Source: Fulvivirga ligni (GTDB lineage Bacteria; Bacteroidota; Bacteroidia; Cytophagales; Cyclobacteriaceae). Taken from it: a DNA stretch of 64,000 bases. Both the position numbers and the translations under genes were made by a program. The stretch covers positions 1,221,001 through 1,285,000 of the forward strand of contig NZ_CP089979.1 in assembly GCF_021389935.1 (NCBI RefSeq), written 5' to 3'. Below, in pieces: positions 4,195 to 41,408 of the stretch. Under the pieces are notes generated by a model that worked only from the letters and a program-made list of their open reading frames with translations, was not told the DNA's origin and searched no databases. The stretch's first letter is position 1, and every line of letters starts with the position of its first letter.

Positions 4195-5247
4195 ATGACT
4201 GCAATACTTCTTGCGATAGCTACATCATTCATAATCACATTTTTAGTGATCCCCGTGATCATTAAATATTCTAAGAAAAAGGCCAAGCTTTTGGATACTC
4301 CGGGCAGGAGAAAAATCCATAAGAAGATCACTCCTTCTATGGGGGGAGTCGGTATATTTCTTGGTTTTTTTGTGGCTTTGCTGGTGTGGTTGCCTTTAGA
4401 AGGTTTTGAGTATTTCAAATATATACTTGCAGGTACTGCTATTATCTTTCTGGTTGGTATCAGAGATGATATTGTTCCTTTGAGGCCGCTCTACAAGTTA
4501 GTAGGCCAGCTTATAGCAGCTTCTATTGTGGTGCTCTTTTCTGGGGTAAGGCTACATTCATTATACGGTTTGTTTGGTGTCTATGAAATGAATGAGGTGG
4601 TAAGTTATCTTATCAGCGTTTTCACTTTCATTGTAGTTACTAACTCTTTTAACCTTATTGACGGGTTAGATGGCCTGGCCGGTACTATTGCTTTAATAGC
4701 GCTCACTAGCTTTGGCCTTTGGTTCTATCTTATAGATCAGCCTTGGGTGGCATTGCTTTCTTTAAGCATTGCCGGAGCGGTATTGGCCTTCTTAACTTTT
4801 AACTGGGAGCCTTCTAAAATATTTATGGGAGATACCGGAGCGCTGGTCATAGGCTTTGTGTTTTCGGTGATGGTAATCACCTTTATTGATGCCAATTATA
4901 ATCTGCCAGAGAGCAATCCATTCAGATTTACAGCCTCTATAACCAGTGGAATATGCGTAATCATTATTCCCCTGTTTGATACATTAAGGATATTTATTCT
5001 TAGGATTTCGAAGAAGCAGTCACCGTTTGCCCCGGATAAGAATCATATTCATCATGCTTTGATGAGATTGGGGCTGAAGCATTCTGAAACTGCGGTGGCT
5101 TTAGGCATCCTCAACATTGGTTATATATTGCTGGCTGTGGCCTGCATGAATGTTAAAGATGCCATCTTATTGCCTTTATTGATAATAATGTCAGTGGTCT
5201 TGTCACTAACGCTGGATTTTCTAATTATCAGAAAGCTAAACCGATAA
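4195..5247 (+). CDS. wecA: Undecaprenyl-phosphate sugar-1-phosphate transferase (WecA/TagO-like)
   Basis: Integral membrane transferase of 350 residues in the polyprenyl-phosphate N-acetylhexosamine-1-phosphate transferase family. It moves a HexNAc-1-phosphate from a UDP-sugar to undecaprenyl phosphate, the first step of lipid-linked glycan synthesis. Visible motifs are GIRDDIVPLRP near residue 88 (metal-binding Asp pair), NLIDGLDGLAGT near 153, IFMGDTGALVIGF near 208 and HIHHALMRLG near 283, the His-rich loop typical of WecA/TagO rather than MraY. About eleven membrane segments are present. It has its own candidate promoter and is the last gene of the polysaccharide block, convergent with cysQ. 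The exact sugar (GlcNAc or other) is not determined. Confidence 0.85.
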   Translation: MTAILLAIATSFIITFLVIPVIIKYSKKKAKLLDTPGRRKIHKKITPSMGGVGIFLGFFVALLVWLPLEGFEYFKYILAGTAIIFLVGIRDDIVPLRPLYKLVGQLIAASIVVLFSGVRLHSLYGLFGVYEMNEVVSYLISVFTFIVVTNSFNLIDGLDGLAGTIALIALTSFGLWFYLIDQPWVALLSLSIAGAVLAFLTFNWEPSKIFMGDTGALVIGFVFSVMVITFIDANYNLPESNPFRFTASITSGICVIIIPLFDTLRIFILRISKKQSPFAPDKNHIHHALMRLGLKHSETAVALGILNIGYILLAVACMNVKDAILLPLLIIMSVVLSLTLDFLIIRKLNR

Positions 5248-5255
5248 CGGTTTAG
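5236..5255. terminator. Bidirectional hairpin at the wecA/cysQ convergence
   Basis: CTAAACCG and CGGTTTAG form an 8-bp perfect stem around the loop ATAA. The stem contains the last codons of both convergent genes (stops at 5245-5247 and 5252-5254). No strong U-run follows on either strand, so termination is inferred. Confidence 0.45.
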
Positions 5256-6016
5256 AATCCAAGGGCCAGAAATCCAGTATTCAATAATGTTTCTTTGTTA
5301 TAAGTAAAAGGTACAGGTCCTGTTTCTTTCAGTACAGTACCACCAGCACTTTCAAGTACAGCTTGTCCTGCAGCCGTATCCCATTCCATAGTAGGCCCAT
5401 GACGGTAATAAATGTCTGCTTTACCTTCTGCCACCATGCAGAACTTTAGAGAACTACCTACTGAAATACTGTCAGTAACATCGTATTGCTTCAATAATAC
5501 TTCTTCTTCAGGAGATGCGTGAGACTTGCTTCTTACGGCTATTCTATTAGCAGTAGATCCATTTACTTTCAAAGGAGACTCTTCTCCATTTACAAGTTTA
5601 AATGCTCTTTCACCTGTACCTACATAAACTACATCAGGCACTGGCGCATACACAATACCAAATACTGGTTTGTGCTTATTGATCAAAGCTATATTTACAG
5701 TAAACTCACCATTTCTGTTGATAAATTCTTTAGTACCATCTAAAGGATCTACTAACCAAAAAGTGTCATACTTGATTCTAGTGCTATATTCTATTTCATT
5801 CCCTTCTTCAGAGATAATTGGTATTTCAGGGTATAATTTAGATAACCCCTTCATAATCACAGCATGAGATGCTTTATCTGCTAGTGTCAGTGGAGAGTCA
5901 TCACTTTTGTGTTCAACGTTACCAGCAAGTTCTTTATCATGATAAATATTAAGAATGGCCTGGCCGGCATGTAGAGCTAAATCAACCAGCTCCTGGGTGT
6001 TAATGGTTTCTATCAT
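5252..6016 (-). CDS. cysQ: 3'(2'),5'-bisphosphate nucleotidase
   Basis: Inositol-monophosphatase superfamily enzyme of 254 residues that hydrolyses 3'-phosphoadenosine 5'-phosphate to AMP, recycling the by-product of PAPS-dependent reactions. Metal-site motifs are present: EEGNE (residues 70-74), DPLDGTKEF (90-98) and the C-terminal WDTAAGQAVLESAGG. The ATG at 6016 is chosen because homology-like sequence begins at MIETINTQELVDLA; the longer reading from 6034 adds six unconvincing residues. It is divergent from cysC with 80 bases between the starts, consistent with shared control of sulfate activation. Family and context agree well. Confidence 0.9.
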   Translation of the reverse strand: MIETINTQELVDLALHAGQAILNIYHDKELAGNVEHKSDDSPLTLADKASHAVIMKGLSKLYPEIPIISEEGNEIEYSTRIKYDTFWLVDPLDGTKEFINRNGEFTVNIALINKHKPVFGIVYAPVPDVVYVGTGERAFKLVNGEESPLKVNGSTANRIAVRSKSHASPEEEVLLKQYDVTDSISVGSSLKFCMVAEGKADIYYRHGPTMEWDTAAGQAVLESAGGTVLKETGPVPFTYNKETLLNTGFLALGF

Positions 6017-6070
6017 GTAAACAAAACTACACAAAAGGCTATAGGGTTTATTAATTAACTTAATTAATTG

Positions 6071-6078
6071 TATTTTTG
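6071..6078 (+). promoter_or_regulatory. Candidate -7 promoter element of cysC
   Basis: TATTTTTG matches TAnnTTTG and lies 18 bases before the chosen ATG at 6097. This argues against the TTG start at 6076, which would fall inside the promoter element. Confidence 0.4.
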
Positions 6079-6096
6079 GCGTTTAAATTTCAAATA

Positions 6097-6699
6097 ATGG
6101 CTGAAAACATCCATCCCATATTCGATAAGATATTAAATACCCAACAGAAGGAAGAGTTACTCAAGCAAAAATCCCTTGTTATTTGGATGGTAGGGCTTTC
6201 CGGATCAGGAAAAAGCACTGTAGCGAGAGGTCTCGAAAACAAACTTCACGAAGAAGGATATTTAACATCATTGTTGGATGGCGATAATTTAAGAACCGGT
6301 TTAAACAATAATCTAGGCTTCTCTGAGGAAGATAGAACGGAAAATATTAGAAGAGCAGCAGAAGCTTCTAAACTATTAGCCGCGAACGGTGTAATTACTA
6401 TATGCTCTTTGATAAGCCCCACCGAAAAAATTCGGAAGATGGCAGCAGATATCATCGGAGATAAATATTGTGAGGTTTTTATAGATTGCCCTCTAGAAGA
6501 GTGTGAGAAAAGAGATGTGAAAGGACTTTACGCGAAAGCCAGAAGAGGTGAAATCAAAAGCTTTACAGGAATAGATTCACCGTTTGAAGCACCTCAAAAC
6601 CCTCATGTAAGACTAGCTACTGCTGAAGAGCCAGTTGAAGACAGTTTATCAAAACTTTTAGAATACATTTTGCCAAAAATAAAATTAAGTAAGAATTAA
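6097..6699 (+). CDS. cysC: Adenylylsulfate (APS) kinase
   Basis: Phosphorylates adenylylsulfate to PAPS with ATP in sulfate activation. The 200-residue cytoplasmic protein has a P-loop GLSGSGKST at residues 33-41 and the family motifs LLDGDNLRTGL, GFSEEDRTENIRR and DCPLEECEKRDVKGLYAKA, including the segment that accepts APS. The length is normal for a stand-alone kinase. ATG at 6097 is used because an upstream TTG at 6076 overlaps a promoter-like element. Its stop codon overlaps the cysD start by one base (TAATG), so cysC, cysD and cysN form one unit, with cysQ divergent upstream. PAPS may serve assimilation or sulfation of surface polysaccharides; no PAPS reductase is visible here. Confidence 0.95.
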   Translation: MAENIHPIFDKILNTQQKEELLKQKSLVIWMVGLSGSGKSTVARGLENKLHEEGYLTSLLDGDNLRTGLNNNLGFSEEDRTENIRRAAEASKLLAANGVITICSLISPTEKIRKMAADIIGDKYCEVFIDCPLEECEKRDVKGLYAKARRGEIKSFTGIDSPFEAPQNPHVRLATAEEPVEDSLSKLLEYILPKIKLSKN

Positions 6700-7604
6700 T
6701 GAAGGCTTACAACTTGACCCACTTAAAAGAGCTGGAAGCGGAAGCAATATACGTTATCCGCGAAGTAGCAGCTCAGTTTGAAAATCCTGCCATATTATTT
6801 TCCGGTGGTAAGGACTCTATTACAGTAGCACATTTAGCGAAAAAGGCATTCTTTCCAGGTAAAGTTCCTTTTCCATTAGTGCACATAGATACCGGACATA
6901 ACTTCCCTGAAACCATTCAGTTTAGAGATGATTTCGTGAAAGAAATGGGAGCTGAACTAATCGTAGGATCGGTTCAGAAATCAATTGATGAAGGCAAAGT
7001 AGTAGAAGAGAAAGGCTTTAACGCCAGTAGAAATGGTTTACAGACAGTAACATTATTAGAAACTATTGAATCTAATAAGTTTGATGCTTGTCTAGGTGGG
7101 GCCAGAAGAGATGAGGAAAAAGCCAGAGCTAAAGAGAGATTCTTCTCACATAGAGATGAGTTTGGACAGTGGGATCCTAAAAACCAGAGACCAGAGCTTT
7201 GGAACATATTTAACGGGAAAAAACATTTTGGAGAGAACTTTAGAGTGTTCCCTATCAGTAACTGGACTGAAATGGATGTGTGGCAGTACATCTTGCAAGA
7301 GAAAATTGAATTGCCATCATTATACTTTGCTCACGAGCGTGATATTTTCGTTAGAGATAACGTGATCATGGCCGAGTGTGATTTTATTCAGCAAAGAGAT
7401 ACTGAAATTACAGAAAAGAGAACTGTAAGATTCAGAACTATTGGTGATATGACTTGTACTGGAGCAGTAGAGTCTTCAGCATCTACTTTAGAAGATATAA
7501 TCGAAGAAGTAGCAGCGGCAAGATCTACAGAACGAGGAACCAGATCGGATGATAAAAGATCAGAGGCGGCTATGGAAGACCGTAAAAAACAAGGTTATTT
7601 TTAA
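6699..7604 (+). CDS. cysD: Sulfate adenylyltransferase subunit 2
   Basis: Catalytic ATP-pyrophosphatase subunit of the heterodimeric ATP sulfurylase, forming APS from ATP and sulfate. The PP-loop ILFSGGKDSI sits near residues 32-41, followed by HIDTGHNFPE, the GGARRDEEKARAKERFFS segment and the conserved end MEDRKKQGYF. The 301-residue length is that of the E. coli protein. It is translationally coupled to cysC by a one-base overlap and followed after 78 bases by its GTPase partner cysN. No oddities were seen. Confidence 0.97.
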   Translation: MKAYNLTHLKELEAEAIYVIREVAAQFENPAILFSGGKDSITVAHLAKKAFFPGKVPFPLVHIDTGHNFPETIQFRDDFVKEMGAELIVGSVQKSIDEGKVVEEKGFNASRNGLQTVTLLETIESNKFDACLGGARRDEEKARAKERFFSHRDEFGQWDPKNQRPELWNIFNGKKHFGENFRVFPISNWTEMDVWQYILQEKIELPSLYFAHERDIFVRDNVIMAECDFIQQRDTEITEKRTVRFRTIGDMTCTGAVESSASTLEDIIEEVAAARSTERGTRSDDKRSEAAMEDRKKQGYF

Positions 7605-7682
7605 TATCTCTTTTTTAAAATCATTTTAACAAGCATTACTCGTATCGTAAGATTTTAACGGTCTTACAAAATCCAGAAAATA

Positions 7683-8963
7683 ATGAGCAATAATAATACA
7701 GACGCTAAAGGATATTTAGATATGGAACTTCTACGCTTTACCACTGCAGGTAGTGTAGATGATGGTAAAAGTACTCTTATAGGAAGGCTTCTATATGACT
7801 CAAAGTCAATCTTTGAAGATCAGTATGAGGCTATCGAAGAGTCTAGTAAGAGAAAAGGAGATGAAAACGTAAACCTTGCTTTACTTACTGACGGACTTAG
7901 AGCTGAGCGTGAGCAGGGAATTACCATAGATGTAGCTTACAGATACTTCGCTACACCAAAAAGAAAGTTTATCATAGCTGATACTCCAGGACATATTCAG
8001 TACACCAGAAACATGGTTACTGGTGCTTCTACAGCTAACCTTGCCCTTATCCTGGTAGATGCCAGAAACGGTGTAGTAGAGCAAACACACAGACATACAT
8101 TCATTGCTTCTTTGTTAGGTATACCTCACGTGGTTTTTTGTATCAACAAAATGGACCTGGTAGACTACAGCGAAGAGGTTTACAATAAAATTAAAGGCGA
8201 TATTGAATCTTTCGCTTCTAAGCTTAATGTAAAAGATATCAGATTCATTCCTATCAGTGCCTTGAAAGGTGATAACGTAGTAAATGAGTCTGAGCAGACA
8301 CCTTGGTTTAAAGGTGGTACTTTACTTTACTTATTAGAAAATATTCACATAGGAAGTGACCACAATCACATCGATTGTCGTTTCCCTGTGCAGCATGTTA
8401 TCCGCCCTCATTCTGATAAATATCATGACTATAGAGGGTATGCTGGTAGAATAGCAGGTGGTGTGTTCAAACCTGGTGATACCGTTTCTGTATTACCTTC
8501 AGGATTCACCTCGAAAATTAAAAGTATAGATTCTTTTGATGGCGAGCTGGAAGAAGCGTTTGCTCCTATGTCTGTAACTATTCAGTTAGAAGATGATATA
8601 GACATCAGTCGTGGAGACATGATTGTGAGAGAAAACAACAAGCCAAACGTAGGTCAGGATGTAGAGATTATGCTTTGCTGGATGAATGAGAAAGCACTTG
8701 TTCCTAACGGTAAATACGGCATTAAGCATACTACAAACGATGCTCGTTGTATGGTGAAAAACATTCAGTATAAGGTAGATATCAACACTTTACACCGAAT
8801 TGAAGACGATAAGACCATTAAAATGAATGACATTGCCAGAGTAACATTGCGTACTACAAAGCCACTTTTCTTTGATAGGTATACAAGAAACAGAATTACA
8901 GGTAGTGTTATTTTAATAGATGAAGCTACAAATGAAACGGTAGCTGCAGGAATGATTATCTAA
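7683..8963 (+). CDS. cysN: Sulfate adenylyltransferase subunit 1 (GTPase)
   Basis: GTPase subunit that drives ATP sulfurylase. All translation-factor-type G motifs are visible: GSVDDGKST (23-31), the switch GITIDVAYRYF, DTPGH (100-104), NKMD (near 155) and SALKGDN, followed by two beta-barrel domains. At 426 residues it lacks any fused APS kinase domain, which agrees with a separate cysC gene. It follows cysD after 78 bases that contain the inverted repeat GTAAGA/TCTTAC (7647-7667) but no clear promoter. Only three bases separate its stop from the pheS start, so pheS is probably read from the same transcript, an unusual partner. Confidence 0.97.
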   Translation: MSNNNTDAKGYLDMELLRFTTAGSVDDGKSTLIGRLLYDSKSIFEDQYEAIEESSKRKGDENVNLALLTDGLRAEREQGITIDVAYRYFATPKRKFIIADTPGHIQYTRNMVTGASTANLALILVDARNGVVEQTHRHTFIASLLGIPHVVFCINKMDLVDYSEEVYNKIKGDIESFASKLNVKDIRFIPISALKGDNVVNESEQTPWFKGGTLLYLLENIHIGSDHNHIDCRFPVQHVIRPHSDKYHDYRGYAGRIAGGVFKPGDTVSVLPSGFTSKIKSIDSFDGELEEAFAPMSVTIQLEDDIDISRGDMIVRENNKPNVGQDVEIMLCWMNEKALVPNGKYGIKHTTNDARCMVKNIQYKVDINTLHRIEDDKTIKMNDIARVTLRTTKPLFFDRYTRNRITGSVILIDEATNETVAAGMII

Positions 8964-29657: not shown

Positions 29658-30149
29658 ATGAATATAACAGACGACCATATCGCTCTTTTAGGAGCCATTC
29701 ATGATGCTGAGGGTCAGTCACTAAGCGTGGCTGAATTTAGCAAGAAAGAAAATCTACCATATGCTGCCATTAACCAGCTGATGCAGGAACTTGAGTCTTT
29801 TGATTTAGTGGAGACTGAAGAGGAGGCAGGTGTGTTTTACCTCACGACTTATGGATATGAGTATGTAGAAAACTATGATCGAGGGGGCGTAGCCAAACGT
29901 AAGAAGGAAGTTTTTCAAGACTTTGATCAGCTGAATGATGCGGTGGAGAAGATTGGAAGTAGTAAGGCTATGAGGTATACTTCGTTTTGGCTTTTTGGCT
30001 TCGCTATCATCTTTACCCTGGCACTTGTTTTTATGCCAGATCTATTCAGTCCTGATAAGCCTGACATACCTGATCTCAATTTAGAAAACATCCAACAACA
30101 AGTAGATTCTATTAGAACATCTGATTCTTTAAATATCCCTAATGAATGA
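29658..30149 (+). CDS. Winged-helix membrane protein
   Basis: A 163-residue protein: an N-terminal winged-helix-like domain (residues 1-75; HIALLGAIHDAEGQSLSVAE and YAAINQLMQELESFDLVETE), one transmembrane helix (WLFGFAIIFTLALVFM, near 112) and an acidic C-terminal tail with SIRTSDSLNIPNE. This layout suggests a membrane-tethered regulator or a cytosolic domain held at the membrane. Its stop overlaps the start of the next small membrane protein gene by four bases. Family unknown. Confidence 0.6.
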   Translation: MNITDDHIALLGAIHDAEGQSLSVAEFSKKENLPYAAINQLMQELESFDLVETEEEAGVFYLTTYGYEYVENYDRGGVAKRKKEVFQDFDQLNDAVEKIGSSKAMRYTSFWLFGFAIIFTLALVFMPDLFSPDKPDIPDLNLENIQQQVDSIRTSDSLNIPNE

Positions 30150-30343
30150 AAGCAAAATACGGATTAATTGTTTTGATAATCGGCTACTGTATTGATTTTA
30201 TCGCGGCAATAGTAAAGATCTTGCACTTAAAAGGTCCGGAGATGTTGTTTATGATAGCTTTGGTTTTTAAAGTGGTAGGAGCTTTGACATTGCTATATAA
30301 AATAGTTACTTATCCCAAATTCAAAGAATTCTTTAATCACTAA
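30146..30343 (+). CDS. Small two-helix membrane protein resembling the GldL N-terminus
   Basis: A 65-residue protein with two hydrophobic helices (YGLIVLIIGYCIDFIAAIV and MLFMIALVFKVVGALTLLY) joined by KILHLKGPE. The spacing and the 'K-x-L/M-H' turn resemble the membrane part of the gliding protein GldL, but the long cytoplasmic domain is missing and no other gld genes are near. It overlaps the upstream gene by four bases and the GNAT gene by one, so the three are coupled. Function is unknown. Confidence 0.55.
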   Translation: MKAKYGLIVLIIGYCIDFIAAIVKILHLKGPEMLFMIALVFKVVGALTLLYKIVTYPKFKEFFNH

Positions 30344-30750
30344 TGAACATTACCATTTCCGAAACCAGAGATATACCTGTGGAGCGAATTCTTGATTTGT
30401 ACAAAGCTAACAAATGGAGCTCTGCCGATAAGCCGGAAGAACTGTACAAAGCTCTGATGAATTCTCATGGCCTGGTTTCTGCCTGGGATGGCGACACCCT
30501 GGTGGGCATTGGCAACGCTATTTCGGATGGTTATCTGGTGGTGTATTATCCGCACCTATTGGTGCTGCCGACATACCAGGGCAAAGGCATAGGTCATATG
30601 ATCATGAATAAGATGCAGGAGAAATATTCAGGCTTCCATATGCAAATGCTTACTGCCGATGGCAAAGCCATAGATTTCTATAAAAAAGTTGGCTTTTCAA
30701 GAGCCGGACAAACCGAGCCCATGTGGATTTATAAGGGAAATGAGCATTAA
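30343..30750 (+). CDS. GNAT-family N-acetyltransferase
   Basis: Acetyltransferase of 135 residues. LVVYYPHLLVLPTYQGKGIG contains the acetyl-CoA pyrophosphate loop (QGKGIG), followed by the helix HMIMNKMQEKY and the C-terminal DGKAIDFYKKVGFSRAG, the usual GNAT end. The substrate cannot be read. Its start overlaps the stop of the preceding membrane protein by one base, and the ABM-like gene follows after 11 bases. Confidence 0.88.
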   Translation: MNITISETRDIPVERILDLYKANKWSSADKPEELYKALMNSHGLVSAWDGDTLVGIGNAISDGYLVVYYPHLLVLPTYQGKGIGHMIMNKMQEKYSGFHMQMLTADGKAIDFYKKVGFSRAGQTEPMWIYKGNEH

Positions 30751-30761
30751 AACCTAAACCT

Positions 30762-31073
30762 ATGATAGCAAGAATATGGCATGGCCGAACCAAAGCGGAG
30801 CATTATGAAGAGTACACGGCATTCACAAATGCCACAGCTATTCCCGACTATAGCGGCACCGAGGGATTCATAAAACTAAGCTTCCTTAGACGCCTGGACG
30901 GTGATGTAGCACATTATACCCTGATCACCTATTGGGAGAATATGGAGGTAATAAAAAACTTCGCCGGCGAAGATTACGAAAAGGCCAAATACTATCCTGA
31001 GGATAAGGATTACCTACTTGAGTTTGAAGAGAAAGTGATTCATTATGAGGTGTTTGCAGATGGTGACTTATAG
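30762..31073 (+). CDS. ABM-like (antibiotic biosynthesis monooxygenase fold) protein
   Basis: A 103-residue single-domain protein beginning MIARIWHGRTKAEHYEEYTA, with HYTLITYWENMEVIKNFAGE in the middle. These are the hallmarks of dimeric alpha/beta-barrel (ABM-like) proteins. Many members are oxygenases or simple stress proteins, and no catalytic residue can be assigned here. It follows the GNAT gene closely and ends 88 bases before the AbiC-like gene, so it marks the left edge of the putative defence locus. Confidence 0.65.
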   Translation: MIARIWHGRTKAEHYEEYTAFTNATAIPDYSGTEGFIKLSFLRRLDGDVAHYTLITYWENMEVIKNFAGEDYEKAKYYPEDKDYLLEFEEKVIHYEVFADGDL

Positions 31074-31161: not shown

Positions 31162-32391
31162 ATGCGACGATTGCTCCAGAATGAAAAACTTAGCATATTC
31201 TTAATATTCTTAGGGCTAATAATTATCGTATTAGGCATAATTAGCTTTTTGTGGCTGAATTTCAACTTAAGATTTGATAAATCCATAAATTCGGAATTGT
31301 TTGCTCGGTTTGGAGATTTTATAGGTGGAGTTGTTGGTTCAATTTGGGCATTGGCGGGTGTTATGCTATTTTATATAGCTTTATCAGAGCAAAGAAATGA
31401 TTTCAGAACTAATAGAGAGGCGTTAGACTTACAAATCAACGCCCTAAATCAACAGATTAAAGAATTTCAACTCCAGCGTGCAGAGCTTACTTCGAGTCGC
31501 AAAATATATGAAGACCAGAGCAATACCCTTAGAGTTCAGCAGTTTGAATCTAATTTCTACTCGCTCTTAAATGTTTATCTCACAATAAAAAAAAATTTAA
31601 ACGAGATAGATAAAGATGGTGATTTTTTTAAAAGCCTACAGGAAAGGCTTCTAGAAAATTATGATATTTCTAATTTGTCTGTATATGAATTGCACAATGG
31701 TCTAATTAAAAAGTATATGCAATTGTATCAGTTTCAAAGAGGGCATTTGTCTCACTATTTTAAGGCATTTTATAGACTCGTTAAAATTATTGAATCAAAT
31801 AAAGTATTAAGCGATAATGAAAAGATTTTTTATGCCAAAATTTTAAGGTCTCAATTGACTGACTACGAACAGTTAATTTTATACTATAATTCTCATTCGA
31901 TCTATGGAACTAAAGCTCGCTCACTGATACTTCAATATAATCTTCTTAAACATGTCCCAATGTTTCATAAGCCTGAATTCCATCAATTCAAAAAAGAAGA
32001 TTATCATGATTTACTTCAATTTAGTGATAGATTAACTTATTTCCTTATTAAACATATTAATTCTTCCTATGATGTTGATAATGAAGTGCTAAAAGTTGAA
32101 GAGGAGTTTGTGGTATTCAAATGTATAGTTGGAATATATTTTGAAGAAGCAATTGATTTGAAGGTTTTTTGTAAAAAGGATATTAGAGACAATAACATTC
32201 AATTAGGGGAAGATGACTTTCACGAGTTTTTGTTTTACTTTTTGCACGATAGATTAGTATTCAGTACCTATTTGGATATTACAAAAGTTAGAATTTCTAA
32301 GTTTAAAACTGAGGAAGATGAGCTAAAAATTTTTGGTTTACGTATTGAATCCGACTCTCAACTTATTCTAAATCATGACAAGATCAGCTAA
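31162..32391 (+). CDS. Putative phage abortive-infection membrane protein (putAbiC family)
   Basis: A 409-residue protein with two N-terminal membrane helices (about 10-34 and 53-75) and a predicted coiled coil (80-125, EQRNDFRTNREALDLQINAL). The cytoplasmic domain has the family hallmarks QQFESNFYSLLNVY, HYFKAFYRLVKIIE and FYAKILRSQLTDYEQLILYY. These match proteins annotated as putative phage abortive-infection (AbiC-like). The last 17 bases overlap the start of the double-DUF262 gene, so translation is coupled and the two products probably act together. The gene is more AT-rich by eye than its neighbours, as expected for acquired defence genes. Whether it is toxic or sensing is unknown. Confidence 0.75.
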   Translation: MRRLLQNEKLSIFLIFLGLIIIVLGIISFLWLNFNLRFDKSINSELFARFGDFIGGVVGSIWALAGVMLFYIALSEQRNDFRTNREALDLQINALNQQIKEFQLQRAELTSSRKIYEDQSNTLRVQQFESNFYSLLNVYLTIKKNLNEIDKDGDFFKSLQERLLENYDISNLSVYELHNGLIKKYMQLYQFQRGHLSHYFKAFYRLVKIIESNKVLSDNEKIFYAKILRSQLTDYEQLILYYNSHSIYGTKARSLILQYNLLKHVPMFHKPEFHQFKKEDYHDLLQFSDRLTYFLIKHINSSYDVDNEVLKVEEEFVVFKCIVGIYFEEAIDLKVFCKKDIRDNNIQLGEDDFHEFLFYFLHDRLVFSTYLDITKVRISKFKTEEDELKIFGLRIESDSQLILNHDKIS

Positions 32392-34720
32392 TATAGACCA
32401 AACATTAAAGGCTGAAGAATTCAGAAAAATTTTTCAATCCTCATTAAGAATTATAGCAAGAAGTATGTCTGTTAAGACACTTTTAAGCGAGAGGAACTTA
32501 AAAAGAATAGATTACAGTCCATACTATCAGCGTAATTATGTTTGGGATAAGGCGAAGCAAACATTTTTTATTGAAAGTGTAATACTTGGAACTGAGGTCC
32601 CTCCTTTAATTCTTTTTAAGATGGGCGCCAAAATTGAGGTTATTGACGGGAGGCAAAGGTTTGAGACTCTAAAGAGATTTAAAGAAAATATCCTGACATT
32701 AAGTATTAAAGGATTAAAGGAATTGCAAGTACTCAATAAACAATCATTCAATAAATTATCTGATGTAAATAAGGATACATTTTTGACCTCTAATATTAGA
32801 GTGTTTGAATTTGAAGTGATAAATCACCCTAATTTGACCGATGAAATCATTGATAGAGTTAAAAAGGAAATTTTCAGACGCTATAATACCGGTATAACAC
32901 CTTTGACACGCGACGAACTTGATAATGCCAAGTATGATAGTGATGAATTTTCGGATTTATTTAAAAATGATTTGAAACATGATTTTGAGCTTTTAGAAAA
33001 TTTCAATAAGTGTTTCTTCCCTAAGGAAAATGTTAGCGAAAAGGGTAATAATGATGGTTTAATATCGAAAAACATTGACCTAATTAGGAGGTTTAGAATT
33101 TTATATAAATTTCCAATTTCCACTTATGCCAGAGGTTCTAATAGAACAGAAATCATTGACTTATTATATGATTTTGCTCAAAATAACACGGAAGACGTAA
33201 CTTATGAGTATATACAATTTAAGTCTACTATTTTAACAGTTCTGAAAATTTTCAACAAATTAACATCCTTAGATTCAGAGTTAGCAAATAAATATATTTA
33301 CGAATGTTTATGGTGGGCGATTACGATTTTACAAGACGCCAATATTGAGTTTGAATATGATTTAATCAAATTTAAAAATTTTTACTCAGGTAATATTGAC
33401 AGTTATTCACAGGATAATAGTCACTATTATGGAAGTATAATAAAACGATTCGAAAATACCAGTCAATTATTTGAAGACCTTTTTAATTATGAATTTTCTT
33501 CCTTCATTCGAAATAGTAAATTTAAAGAACAATTGGTTAAGTTGAGGCAGACTGAGGAAGATTCAGCTCAATCCATTCAAGAATTATCTAACCTTAGATT
33601 ACATAAACCTAATCCTACCTCTACCCCAATTGATGAGATAAGGAATGATCTCAAAACTACTAGATACTTATTACGCCCATCTTATCAAAGACAAGAGAAA
33701 ATTAATGAGCTGAAAGCTTCTGCTCTAATAGAGAGCATACTGTTGGGTATCAATTTACCCCCATTGTTTATTTTTAAGCGAAAAAATAAAGTTAAGGAGG
33801 TGGTTGACGGGCAACAAAGATTATTATCTATAATTGGTTTTTTAGGAGATCAATTTCACAATGAAGATGGGAAATTGACTTACTCAAAGAATAATAATTT
33901 TAAATTAAAAGGCTTACGAGTCTTAACCGATTTGGAGGGGCGCAGATTTAGTGAATTGAGCGATTTACAGCAAGATAAAATATTGGATTTTGTTGTTGAT
34001 TCTATAATTATTGAGGAGGATATGAATGAAGGGTTTGATGAGGTTGATTTATTTATCCGATTAAATTATAAGCCCTATCCTATTAAAGCTAATTCCTTTG
34101 AAATGTGGAATTCTATTGTTGATCCAGATGTGGTTAAGAGTATAAAGGATGTTACTAACGCAGAACATATAAATTGGTTTTTTTTAAGAGAAAGAAAGGA
34201 AGGTCGGCCTGATCGTATGTATAATGAAGAGCTGATTACAGTTCTTTCATACATACATTTTAAATTTGAAAGTGAGGACGTTATAGGTTTTTTCCCAAGA
34301 CAAGATCGCATAACCTGCAGATTGAAGGATAAAAAAGGCTTAAGTGATTTTTTGATAGAATTAGACAATACTGCAATTGATAAAAAATTATTTTTACAAT
34401 CAATTCATACAACTAAAAAAATGATTTCTAATTTTGGGTTGTTGTTTCATGAAGAAATAACCAAGGATATTCTTAACGATTTTTTAAATGTAAAAAAGGC
34501 CAAAACCTATAAGCGTTCTCTTCAAGATTTTTATGTTATATGGCTTGTTTTATGTAGTGTGAGCCCGACAGCCTGTGTTTCAAAGCAAAAGGATATTTTA
34601 CTAGATATTCAACAATTGCTGGTCATTGTGAAAAATACCAACGATGACACAGTTGATAATACTTACTTTGCGAATTTTGAGGGTCACCTTAGAGAGATAC
34701 AGGGGAAATATAGGTCATAA
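32375..34720 (+). CDS. Tandem-DUF262 protein, likely anti-phage effector or sensor
   Basis: A 781-residue cytoplasmic protein with two DUF262 (ParB-like) domains. Domain 1 has YYQRNYVWDKAKQ (50-62) and VIDGRQRFETL (89-99). Domain 2 has SYQRQEKINEL (436-446) and VVDGQQRLLSI (476-486). Both keep the D-G-x-Q-R core, which in SspE and GmrS-type proteins is needed for NTP hydrolysis. No C-terminal HNH/DUF1524 nuclease motif is visible, unlike GmrSD, and residues 640-781 match nothing I know. Its gene overlaps the AbiC-like gene by 17 bases. A role in recognising modified or foreign DNA is inferred from the family. Confidence 0.8.
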   Translation: MTRSANIDQTLKAEEFRKIFQSSLRIIARSMSVKTLLSERNLKRIDYSPYYQRNYVWDKAKQTFFIESVILGTEVPPLILFKMGAKIEVIDGRQRFETLKRFKENILTLSIKGLKELQVLNKQSFNKLSDVNKDTFLTSNIRVFEFEVINHPNLTDEIIDRVKKEIFRRYNTGITPLTRDELDNAKYDSDEFSDLFKNDLKHDFELLENFNKCFFPKENVSEKGNNDGLISKNIDLIRRFRILYKFPISTYARGSNRTEIIDLLYDFAQNNTEDVTYEYIQFKSTILTVLKIFNKLTSLDSELANKYIYECLWWAITILQDANIEFEYDLIKFKNFYSGNIDSYSQDNSHYYGSIIKRFENTSQLFEDLFNYEFSSFIRNSKFKEQLVKLRQTEEDSAQSIQELSNLRLHKPNPTSTPIDEIRNDLKTTRYLLRPSYQRQEKINELKASALIESILLGINLPPLFIFKRKNKVKEVVDGQQRLLSIIGFLGDQFHNEDGKLTYSKNNNFKLKGLRVLTDLEGRRFSELSDLQQDKILDFVVDSIIIEEDMNEGFDEVDLFIRLNYKPYPIKANSFEMWNSIVDPDVVKSIKDVTNAEHINWFFLRERKEGRPDRMYNEELITVLSYIHFKFESEDVIGFFPRQDRITCRLKDKKGLSDFLIELDNTAIDKKLFLQSIHTTKKMISNFGLLFHEEITKDILNDFLNVKKAKTYKRSLQDFYVIWLVLCSVSPTACVSKQKDILLDIQQLLVIVKNTNDDTVDNTYFANFEGHLREIQGKYRS

Positions 34721-34943
34721 GCTCTGTTAATTTCATATGAGCCGTTTGTAGTGTTCCGACAGGTTCACTGCAAATTACAACATGAATTAGAAGTCTCTGA
34801 CTTCGCTACATCGGCTTCATTAATAGAACTCTAACCACAACCACTCAGGTCCACCAAATGATCTCAGCTTCCGCTTATTGAAAAAGTATCTGGTTAATTA
34901 TGCATTGAATGTTATATTACGAGAGTATTTAAGAAAACCGCTG

Positions 34944-35428: not shown

Positions 35429-36685
35429 ATGCAAAATACTTTACAGGCTACCCGACAGAATAATAGAATTCAATCGCTTGATTTTTTACGTGGGCTGGCG
35501 GTGCTGGGAATATTGCTGATCAATATTGAATCATTTTGCTACCCTAATCCATGGAGCTCTTATGAATATGGATATCAGTCGACACTAGATCATGATGTTC
35601 GGTTTTTGGTTTATTTTCTGGCTCAGGGCAAGTTCTTTGGAATGTTTTCACTCCTTTTTGGAGTAGGGTTTTACATCTTTCTGGACCGACTGGAGGCTAA
35701 GGGAATCGGCTTAAAGGCTTTGGATATCTATGCCCGAAGGCTGCTGATATTATTTCTTTTAGGTGTAATTCACGCTTACTTTATTTGGGATGGTGACATA
35801 TTGTATCATTATTCCATTTGTGGATTTCTACTCTTTCCCTTTCGCGCTTTTACCGTGAGGAAGCTGCTCTTTATTTTGCTGGTACCTGTTTCTGTTTTAT
35901 CATATAACTCCATTTCTAATATATTGAGCAGGCAGGATCAACATCAGAAATATGTAGAAGCTTCCAGTGCTAAAAATCCTACCGAAGAGCAGAAGAAAAT
36001 AGTGGAAAAGTGGATTTCCAGAACATCCCGGAAAGAAGGTCACATTGGTGACATAGAAAATCACCGGCAAACTTACTGGCAAAGTGTGAAGGCCAACGCT
36101 GAACATACTAAAGTGCATAAAGGCGAGGTGATGTATTCCGGCATACTGTTCCGCACCCTGATCATGATGATTCTCGGTATCATCTTATACAAAAGTGGCG
36201 TGTTTAGAGATTATCACTCTGTAAAATACTACTGGCTGATCACCGCGGCCGTCACTGCTTTTGCCGTTTATGTTAACTACATCAGATACTACCACTGGAC
36301 ATACCAATACTTTGACCCAGTGCTCAGTGTATGGAAAGAATGGCTTTTCACCTTTCCAAAAGAAACCATGGCCCTTGCCTATATTCTGGTGTTCAACGGA
36401 CTCTACCAGAAGTTTTCAATATTCAAACGCCTGATACCAATTTCCCTGGCAGGCCGAATGGCCCTCACCAACTATATCACCCAAAGCATCATCTGCGGAT
36501 TAATATTCTATGGCTATGGCTTTTCCCTCTACGGCCAACTGGCTCGCCATGAGCTACTTTACATAGTCCCCTGCATTTGGATGCTACAATTAATCTGGAG
36601 CTACTTCTGGTTCAAAAAGTTTGAATACGGGCCATTAGAGTGGTGCTGGAGGAGGTTGACTTATTCGGGGGGGGGGGTGGGGTAA
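35429..36685 (+). CDS. DUF418-family membrane protein
   Basis: Polytopic membrane protein of 418 residues with about nine helices. The start RIQSLDFLRGLAVLGILLIN and FGMFSLLFGVGFYIFLDRLE, then GRMALTNYITQSIICGLIFY and the C-terminal WSYFWFKKFEYGPLEWCWRR, are diagnostic of DUF418 (YeiB-like) proteins, which are often placed near acyltransferase-3-type proteins. Function is not established. The coding sequence ends in an 11-G homopolymer (36667-36677) just before the stop, so the true C-terminus (LTYSGGGVG) may differ by frame if the run length varies. Confidence 0.9.
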   Translation: MQNTLQATRQNNRIQSLDFLRGLAVLGILLINIESFCYPNPWSSYEYGYQSTLDHDVRFLVYFLAQGKFFGMFSLLFGVGFYIFLDRLEAKGIGLKALDIYARRLLILFLLGVIHAYFIWDGDILYHYSICGFLLFPFRAFTVRKLLFILLVPVSVLSYNSISNILSRQDQHQKYVEASSAKNPTEEQKKIVEKWISRTSRKEGHIGDIENHRQTYWQSVKANAEHTKVHKGEVMYSGILFRTLIMMILGIILYKSGVFRDYHSVKYYWLITAAVTAFAVYVNYIRYYHWTYQYFDPVLSVWKEWLFTFPKETMALAYILVFNGLYQKFSIFKRLIPISLAGRMALTNYITQSIICGLIFYGYGFSLYGQLARHELLYIVPCIWMLQLIWSYFWFKKFEYGPLEWCWRRLTYSGGGVG

Positions 36686-40652: not shown

Positions 40653-41408
40653 TTACTTTAAAAAATCATATTCATCTTTGTAATTACTATTCGGCCGTAC
40701 TGGCAACATTACATTTGGAATTAGAGGGTTATCTAACTCCACCATTACCCCTTTTAACCAAGCCAGCTTAGCATAACCTAAGGCCGGATGTGATATAAAC
40801 TCATTAACCAGTTCCATGTATTTATTGCGTTGCTTATGCCGTCTAGGTGTCAACAGCTCATTAATCGCCACTTCACAACCTGATTTATCCTTTTCTATCA
40901 AAGCTCTAAAAAAAGTTACGTCGGGCTGAATTGAAACATTCCGTTTCTTTTGGCTTAGTGCATCCAAAATATCAACATAGCTATGTTCTAATTCATCTTT
41001 TATAGCTAATTGAATAGCATAAATAATTGAGCCTTTTTTGGTGATCTTATCATAGCCGGAATGCCTGAGATGAGCATAACGATTAATCAAACCCTGGTGA
41101 TCACTTAAAAGTGCATATGATACATGAGCCATTCCATATTCCAGTATGCGGCTGTCATAATTATTTATTAGATGCTCATCAAGTCTTCCGCAGGTGTAAA
41201 AATGCTGCCGACACCCTAAAAGAGAACCTTCTAAGAAAAATGATTTCAAAGCAAATCTTTGATGATCGTACCACTTTGATGATTTAAAGGATTCAATTCT
41301 GACTTTTCCTGATTTCAGGCTTTGTAGTAAATCATCCTCATTATCAATTACACTTTGACAAACCTTTAACAATCTTTCCTCCCTACTTTGCAAACTAAAT
41401 TCCACCAT
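40653..41408 (-). CDS. Imm49-like protein
   Basis: A 251-residue helical cytoplasmic protein. The C-terminal segment HPALGYAKLAWLKGVMVELD followed by NPLIPNVML resembles the end of Imm49 family proteins, and GCEVAINELLTPRRHKQRNK precedes it as a helical stretch. Imm49 proteins neutralise polymorphic toxins. No toxin gene accompanies it, so it would be an orphan. The end of the gene lies 103 bases after the small membrane protein's start. The family assignment is tentative. Confidence 0.45.
   Translation of the reverse strand: MVEFSLQSREERLLKVCQSVIDNEDDLLQSLKSGKVRIESFKSSKWYDHQRFALKSFFLEGSLLGCRQHFYTCGRLDEHLINNYDSRILEYGMAHVSYALLSDHQGLINRYAHLRHSGYDKITKKGSIIYAIQLAIKDELEHSYVDILDALSQKKRNVSIQPDVTFFRALIEKDKSGCEVAINELLTPRRHKQRNKYMELVNEFISHPALGYAKLAWLKGVMVELDNPLIPNVMLPVRPNSNYKDEYDFLK

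Follow-up and report, generated by a model that had tools for sequence, protein, structure and literature searches.

The closest described counterparts of the gene pair considered here are defence systems that use DUF262 domains. SspE recognises a mark and hydrolyses guanosine triphosphate (GTP) via its DGQQR motif, thereby licensing its own HNH domain (PMC13251355); TgvAB requires a DUF262 domain from each of two proteins, along with one DUF1524 nuclease (PMC11411939); and the partner protein in Menshen is reportedly a predicted nuclease of the OLD type (PMC10952713). The pair compared with them lies on a 64,000-nucleotide (nt) stretch of the Fulvivirga ligni genome (contig NZ_CP089979.1, positions 1,221,001 to 1,285,000; hereafter the window) and consists of a gene for a putAbiC-type membrane protein, p1, overlapped by the gene for a double-DUF262 protein, p2. 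A sequence-only reading of this DNA had proposed the two as one defence system; both open reading frames (ORFs), their coordinates and the 17-nt overlap were borne out by an ORF check, and Pfam agrees with the domains it had named, p1 matching PF16872 (putAbiC, residues 195-266, E 1.1e-16, 61.5 bits against a cut-off of 22) and p2 matching PF03235 (GmrSD_N) in two stretches (E 3.4e-26). The two genes quite likely form one horizontally moving anti-phage unit, in which p2 would be the switch and p1 the membrane effector of abortive infection.

Like SspE, p2 is predicted to be a DUF262 nucleoside triphosphatase switch that licenses an effector, and it shares the DGQQR motif (PMC13251355, PMC10952713). 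However, SspE has its own HNH/DUF1524 nuclease and SspBCD marks, whereas p2 carries DUF262 twice, lacks an HNH and is paired with a membrane protein, and PADLOC (a 2023 version, used throughout) found no sspBCD among the 10 neighbouring ORFs of the window. TgvAB also needs two DUF262 domains, one per protein (PMC11411939). BrxU was the top Foldseek match of p2, below threshold (E 0.004), and p2 has the DUF262 domain that characterises GmrSD and BrxU; the effector of these Type IV restriction systems (TgvAB, GmrSD and BrxU) is a DUF1524 nuclease, whereas in the window both DUF262 domains lie in one chain beside a membrane partner. Menshen, which we take to be the system behind the PADLOC model name NsnA, likewise has a DUF262 protein with a separate partner, and p2 matches the NsnA model (E 4.6e-54), but this model has 385 positions, half of p2, and neither a further Nsn model match in p1 or the 10 window neighbours nor an OLD gene among the neighbours scanned was found. 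PD-T4-2_A matches p2 at 1.1e-14 (best stretch 43-317, the first half), but p1 matches no PD-T4-2 model. With regard to p1, it shares the core domain, the hydrophobic helices and the GDxxGG motif with putAbiC/AbiC proteins, but differs from the others in a C-terminal extension (absent from the 48 examined) and in its DUF262 neighbour (absent from the 45 examined). The PADLOC AbiC model gave no match to the window p1 at E <= 1 and matches a relative (L122, 3.5e-6); the only PADLOC match of the window p1 was a weak coiled-coil one, LmuB, at 18.1 bits.

A double-DUF262 family with exchangeable modules

First scans of genome contigs and viral contigs with p2 alone yielded no relative. The second contig scan used an alignment of p2 with an N-terminally shortened relative from Priestia, and this added row opened the family. 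The sample comprises the best 80 of 115 confirmed relatives from GTDB genomes and two full-length ones from IMG/VR, giving 82 full- or near-full-length loci, and it was not selected by partner, because the query patterns lie in p2 alone.

One of five module types accompanies the double-DUF262 protein in 78 of the 82 loci. In 29 it is a putAbiC gene directly upstream, and in 28 an HNH tail at the C-terminus. A gene for a protein of ~500 amino acids (aa) lies upstream in 13 (two members were scanned, with no Pfam match), a PIN_8 gene lies downstream in 7 (two identified by Pfam, the others by similarity to one of them), and a Schlafen AlbA_2 gene lies upstream in 1. An HNH tail together with one of the four partner families was found in none of the 82. 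Moreover, a same-strand ORF of at least 100 aa lies within 60 nt in all 50 partner loci, as against five of the 28 HNH loci (L155, L157, L165, L171 and L190). The four loci outside these classes are L156, in which the C-terminus is cut by the contig end; L151, with 857 aa and no detectable HNH; L184, of the ~500-aa group; and L131, in which p2 starts near the contig edge and the 120 nt before it end in a 39-residue frame that resembles a p1 tail by eye. The window pair belongs to a family defined here by two DUF262 domains, both DGxQR motifs and one swappable effector module.

The DGRQR and DGQQR motifs pointed out in the sequence-only reading are present in p2 and conserved across its relatives. 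Both occur in 81 of 83 proteins (the 82 loci and the window), the two exceptions being shortened ORFs; at the first site 79 proteins read DGRQR and two DGKQR, and at the second 81 read DGQQR. In an alignment of 72 rows (the window and 71 of the 82 loci), D91, G92, Q94, R95 and D478-R482 are invariant and R93 is nearly so. The window p2 has no match to a DUF1524/GmrSD_C nuclease (Pfam, E <= 0.1) or to an HNH-type nuclease domain (Pfam), and it stops where the related Priestia protein runs on into HNH.

On a quick, unrooted tree of p2, supported by Shimodaira–Hasegawa-like approximate likelihood ratios (SH-aLRT) without bootstrap, the putAbiC-linked proteins group with L131 and the window in a single clade (31 rows, SH-aLRT 100). 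The PIN_8 group forms a separate clade (SH-aLRT 100) and the HNH members are scattered; because the tree is unrooted, it does not distinguish gain of HNH from its loss. The module labels require 9 changes (minimum 5) against a mean of 43.1 after shuffling, with none of 200 shuffles as low; the figure of 9 counts the unassigned rows as an additional state, and leaving them out gives 5 changes.

Several relatives have features of their own. The Priestia megaterium plasmid locus (L031:6019-7722) carries an annotated HNH endonuclease that resembles an N-terminally shortened double-DUF262-HNH protein; the tblastn similarity begins at p2 residue 290, slightly upstream of the annotated start codon, and this locus showed no first DUF262. 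L170 is a double-DUF262-HNH protein with N-terminal treble-clef zinc fingers (DUF4379, Pfam), and L172 and L190 have similar ones by eye; all three sets are possibly extra DNA-reading modules. The ~500-aa family (L181, L188, L175 and 10 further loci; 12 in Bacillota and one on a viral contig) shares the motifs LSGPEPxNDF and YIDACGS; two members had no Pfam or PADLOC match, and a sequence search of the PDB gave no usable match for this family, p1 or p2. An MT-like label for it was given by look only and was dropped, given the lack of a Pfam match in two members, so that no function is claimed. Matches by tblastn that span both p2 halves on plasmids and phages were not counted as double, as they look like one single-DUF262 protein matched twice. 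A separate single-DUF262 protein of 455 aa is encoded in the genome of the window (G000:C1:42592-43110; L030, L120), with a similar one in the same-genus genome G005 (L119), and neither has a p1 relative in the fetched flanks.

The putAbiC partner and its C-terminal extension

In the clade of p2, putAbiC lies directly upstream in 29 of the 30 fetched loci, the thirtieth (L131) being cut by the contig edge. The adjacency is therefore conserved, as the sequence-only reading had expected of a single system, across five named phyla and a prophage-like contig: the 29 loci are distributed over Bacteroidota (17), Pseudomonadota (6), Bacillota (2, possibly a binning error, because both are metagenome-assembled genomes nested among Bacteroidota), Spirochaetota (1), Planctomycetota (1), another bacterium (1) and a viral contig (1). 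Counted from the first start codon, the spacing of p1 and p2 ranges from -74 to +12 nt in 28 of the 29, the remaining locus having a split p1. In Shewanella sairae (L142:4724-5977), p1 is split into two ORFs beside a full-length p2. Furthermore, the p1 and p2 distances are correlated (r 0.85, 27 pairs, none of 5000 permutations as high; the three partial or broken p1 of L139, L142 and L145 were omitted).

The complete p1 proteins of the clade have 406-440 aa by their first start codon, and all 27 have at least two N-terminal hydrophobic segments, in agreement with the membrane helices described from the sequence. G51 and G56, in the motif at the second helix, are also found in 42 of 47 other putAbiC proteins. 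Where a coiled coil had been proposed, the AlphaFold model of p1 (mean predicted local distance difference test score 90.1, predicted template modelling score 0.69) has a single continuous helix over residues 44-149, with a conserved polar heptad. Its Gln/Asn positions lie in heptad register on the helix leaving transmembrane (TM) helix 2; Q77, N84, Q91, Q98 and Q119 are invariant in 27 of 27 clade proteins and Q105 is kept in 24, whereas among 47 other putAbiC proteins position 77 is mostly Q (39) and the remaining heptad positions are less conserved or gapped.

The feature that follows the pairing is the ~130-residue C-terminal extension (residues 280-409 in the window). A hidden Markov model (HMM) of it matches in 29 of 29 partner loci, positives that are partly by construction because the model was trained on the window and 26 of these loci; the test is its absence elsewhere, and it was found in none of 48 other putAbiC-type ORFs and in none of 29 further loci with partial p1-profile matches in the phylum. 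As the extension tracks DUF262 pairing, we infer that it may be the p2-contact domain. The charged N-terminus and the short inter-helix loop suggest that the coiled coil and the extension face the cytoplasm.

By comparison, 45 other putAbiC loci of the order had no DUF262 ORF within ~6 kb on each side, and putAbiC genes on five plasmids had no DUF262 partner (two of the five records are unannotated). This had looked like a refutation, and is explained by the rarity of the extension-bearing subfamily: the putAbiC family appears mostly free of a link to DUF262, the form with the C-terminal extension alone being linked.

Mobility and defence setting

The pair has a G+C content of 30.6%, against 38.4% and 38.7% in the 10-kb flanks on either side, so that the AT-richness remarked on earlier holds. 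In G005 (locus L243), collinearity with the window holds over 29658-31062 and 35456-36668, but this genome lacks the pair and the ORF at 34878 and has two small ORFs in that interval instead. A full-length p2 match was found in its own genome only, among the 145 genomes searched (its own included). For p1, a full-length match was found in at least one of 395 genomes of the phylum, the window's own, which is a lower bound because up to four candidates were scored per genome and unfetched matches were left out (for example a 749-aa frame in G559 and, in G627, a match to the C-extension only). Another 35 genomes of the phylum match part of the p1 profile, and the 29 such loci that were fetched had no p2 relative within 1.5 kb; E. 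coli genomes gave no DNA match to the Pseudomonas p2 gene. Its sparse distribution, low G+C content and empty site in a relative indicate that the pair is probably a mobile unit.

The setting of the other paired loci points to defence. On the viral contig L202 the pair (4721-8331) lies between a portal gene (phrog_68) and an opposite-strand replication-nicking gene (phrog_91), with terminase, scaffold and integrase genes nearby, and the contig is read as a P2-like prophage. The interval of P2-like phages from gpQ (portal) to gpA (replication) has been described as an anti-phage hotspot (Rousset et al. 2022, PMC9122126). Additionally, 112 neighbouring ORFs of the other paired loci (of 118, six exceeding the residue limit) match 194 PADLOC models at E <= 1e-20, against 4 models in a control set of 77 ORFs taken from 12 parts of the genome that holds the window. 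This contrast is an indication only, because the models are redundant, the tally is of models and not of ORFs with a match, and a single genome supplied the control. Among the models listed are Type I and IIG restriction-modification, Wadjet JetC and Druantia DruM, none of them in more than two ORFs.

Coordinates of the pair and its features in the window are collected below. Promoter and terminator scans gave a signal near chance. Elsewhere in the window, 40653-41408 encodes an Imm49-type immunity protein (PF15575, 2.4e-15); a gene for a DUF4253 protein and genes of no known function lie close by.

Table 1. Positions in the window of p1, p2 and their features
Feature	Position	Strand	Basis
p1, putAbiC membrane protein, 409 aa (with stop)	31162..32391	+	ORF, Pfam; upstream partner in clade
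p1 TM helix 1, residues 12-30	31195..31251	+	Kyte-Doolittle; AlphaFold helix 8-33
p1 TM helix 2, residues 56-74, at G51-D52-F53-x-G55-G56-x-x-G59 motif	31327..31383	+	Kyte-Doolittle, alignment
p1 coiled-coil stalk, residues 77-149; polar heptad Q77, N84, Q91, Q98, Q105, S112, Q119	31390..31608	+	
p1 putAbiC core domain, residues 195-266	31744..31959	+	PF16872
p1 C-terminal extension, residues 280-409; proposed p2-contact domain	31999..32388	+	HMM
p1/p2 reading-frame overlap, 17 nt	32375..32391	+	ORF coordinates
p2, double-DUF262 protein, 781 aa (with stop)	32375..34720	+	ORF, Pfam, family scan
p2 first DUF262/GmrSD_N domain, residues 34-186	32474..32932	+	Pfam
p2 DGRQR motif, residues 91-95	32645..32659	+	alignment, motif count
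p2 second DUF262 region, residues 397-632	33563..34270	+	best PADLOC model NsnA, E 4.6e-54
p2 DGQQR motif, residues 478-482	33806..33820	+	alignment, motif count

Proposed mechanism and alternative explanations

The pairing, the pairing-specific extension, the intact motifs, the apparent mobility, the defence setting and the module swap, as read from sequence, support the two genes as one unit. We infer the remainder, namely the signal, the use of a nucleoside triphosphate (NTP), the p1-p2 contact, the membrane damage, the cell arrest and the role in defence. In the proposed mechanism, p2 would act in the cytoplasm as both sensor and switch, with two DUF262 domains of the ParB/Srx type that bind NTP. 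When it encounters a signal of infection, most likely DNA that is modified or comes from a phage, p2 would bind and hydrolyse NTP and change shape. SspE, which licenses its HNH in this way (PMC13251355), is the precedent for an effector under NTP control. The licensed effector would be p1 rather than a nuclease, coupled to p2 by the long coiled coil and the C-terminal extension, and switched-on p1 oligomers would disrupt the membrane and stop the infected cell.

The consistent upstream pairing in the clade of p2 favours the earlier claim of one system. The assignment of parts within it leans on the swap among HNH, PIN_8, AlbA_2, ~500-aa and putAbiC modules, of which the simplest reading is that p2 is the switch and the module its output. 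The stronger argument for p1 as the executor, a role that the sequence-only reading had given to it, is that, across the p2 tree, its place is taken by HNH, PIN_8 or other genes. That reading had also left open whether the DUF262 protein senses or cuts; as p2 lacks the HNH of many relatives, sensing appears likelier and cutting is disfavoured.

Several observations weigh against the switch and membrane effector, in addition to the limits of the PADLOC contrast given above. As no fold match of p1 was found in the PDB or BFVD at E <= 0.001, membrane disruption is argued from the two TM helices and the coiled coil alone; the fold search returned two short unnamed viral matches (probability 0.99-1.00, E 0.013 and 0.02). 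The correlated divergence of p1 and p2 is also expected from linked inheritance alone, putAbiC can evidently exist without p2, and L184 has no partner in the 332 nt upstream. Furthermore, the defence-island neighbours that the sequence-only reading had named as a check were found around other paired loci, by PADLOC and in the P2 hotspot, but not among the window's own 10 ORFs, in which PADLOC identified no known defence system and one weak homing-endonuclease match.

The roles of the two proteins could be reversed, with p1 sensing phage entry or envelope stress through its two hydrophobic helices and releasing p2, the DUF262 domains of which would cleave or disable DNA. Some DUF262 proteins are indeed filed as Type II restriction enzymes (PADLOC REase_II matches in p2 and relatives), but p2 lacks the HNH present in 28 of the 82 relatives, 50 others have a separate partner gene, and the retained DGxQR is tied in SspE to GTP hydrolysis (PMC13251355) and is no known nuclease motif, which makes this arrangement unlikely. 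Slightly less likely again is that p2 is an NTP clamp on foreign DNA and that p1, for which a membrane anchor and a long stalk are predicted, holds the complex at the membrane, so that replication is blocked but the cell is not killed. Such a clamp would be like Noc, a CTP-dependent membrane binder with the ParB fold, and both Noc and ParB bound to cytidine diphosphate are among the best Foldseek matches of p2; however, these matches are weak (E 0.008 for ParB at best and 0.04 for Noc), and sister loci put nuclease-type modules (HNH, PIN_8) in the place of p1, favouring a destructive effector.

The overlapping two-gene layout and the consistent pairing would also suit a toxin-antitoxin system in which p1 is a membrane toxin restrained by p2 and freed by infection. 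This is improbable, since the fused HNH of 28 of the 82 p2 relatives stands in place of a separate gene of the four partner families, and p2 is large and has two motifs, whereas antitoxins are usually small. The ParB-like fold matches of p2 could, finally, reflect a conserved membrane-linked module for DNA maintenance with no part in defence, which is very improbable in view of the patchy spread (at least one of 395 genomes), the low G+C content, the site empty in a relative, the pair as cargo of the P2 hotspot and the restriction-modification and other defence genes among the neighbours.

Novelty and implications

The full-text literature searched, mostly without subscription journals, held no description of a putAbiC-DUF262 pair or of a tandem DUF262, and neither the Pfam name putAbiC nor the accession PF16872 was found in it. 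DUF262 switches and membrane effectors are each known; what appears new is that the two are paired directly and that the modules form a swap series. A broader proposal, for which the chances are a little short of even, is that the double-DUF262 protein is a general immune switch with exchangeable output; at this locus, an NTP-driven DNA sensor would gate p1, the Gln/Asn-striped coil of which, leaving TM helix 2, would form or open a pore, so that the cell would recognise, hydrolyse and permeabilise with no second messenger.

The characterised DUF262 switches compared here license nucleases. If p2 directly licenses a membrane protein, a circuit of two proteins would link the sensing of nucleic acid to the collapse of the membrane with no cyclic nucleotides. 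The swap series would be a natural experiment, in which the same sensor is joined to five kinds of output and sensing and killing are separable, and one branch of putAbiC would, if this is true, gain a partner and a testable role.

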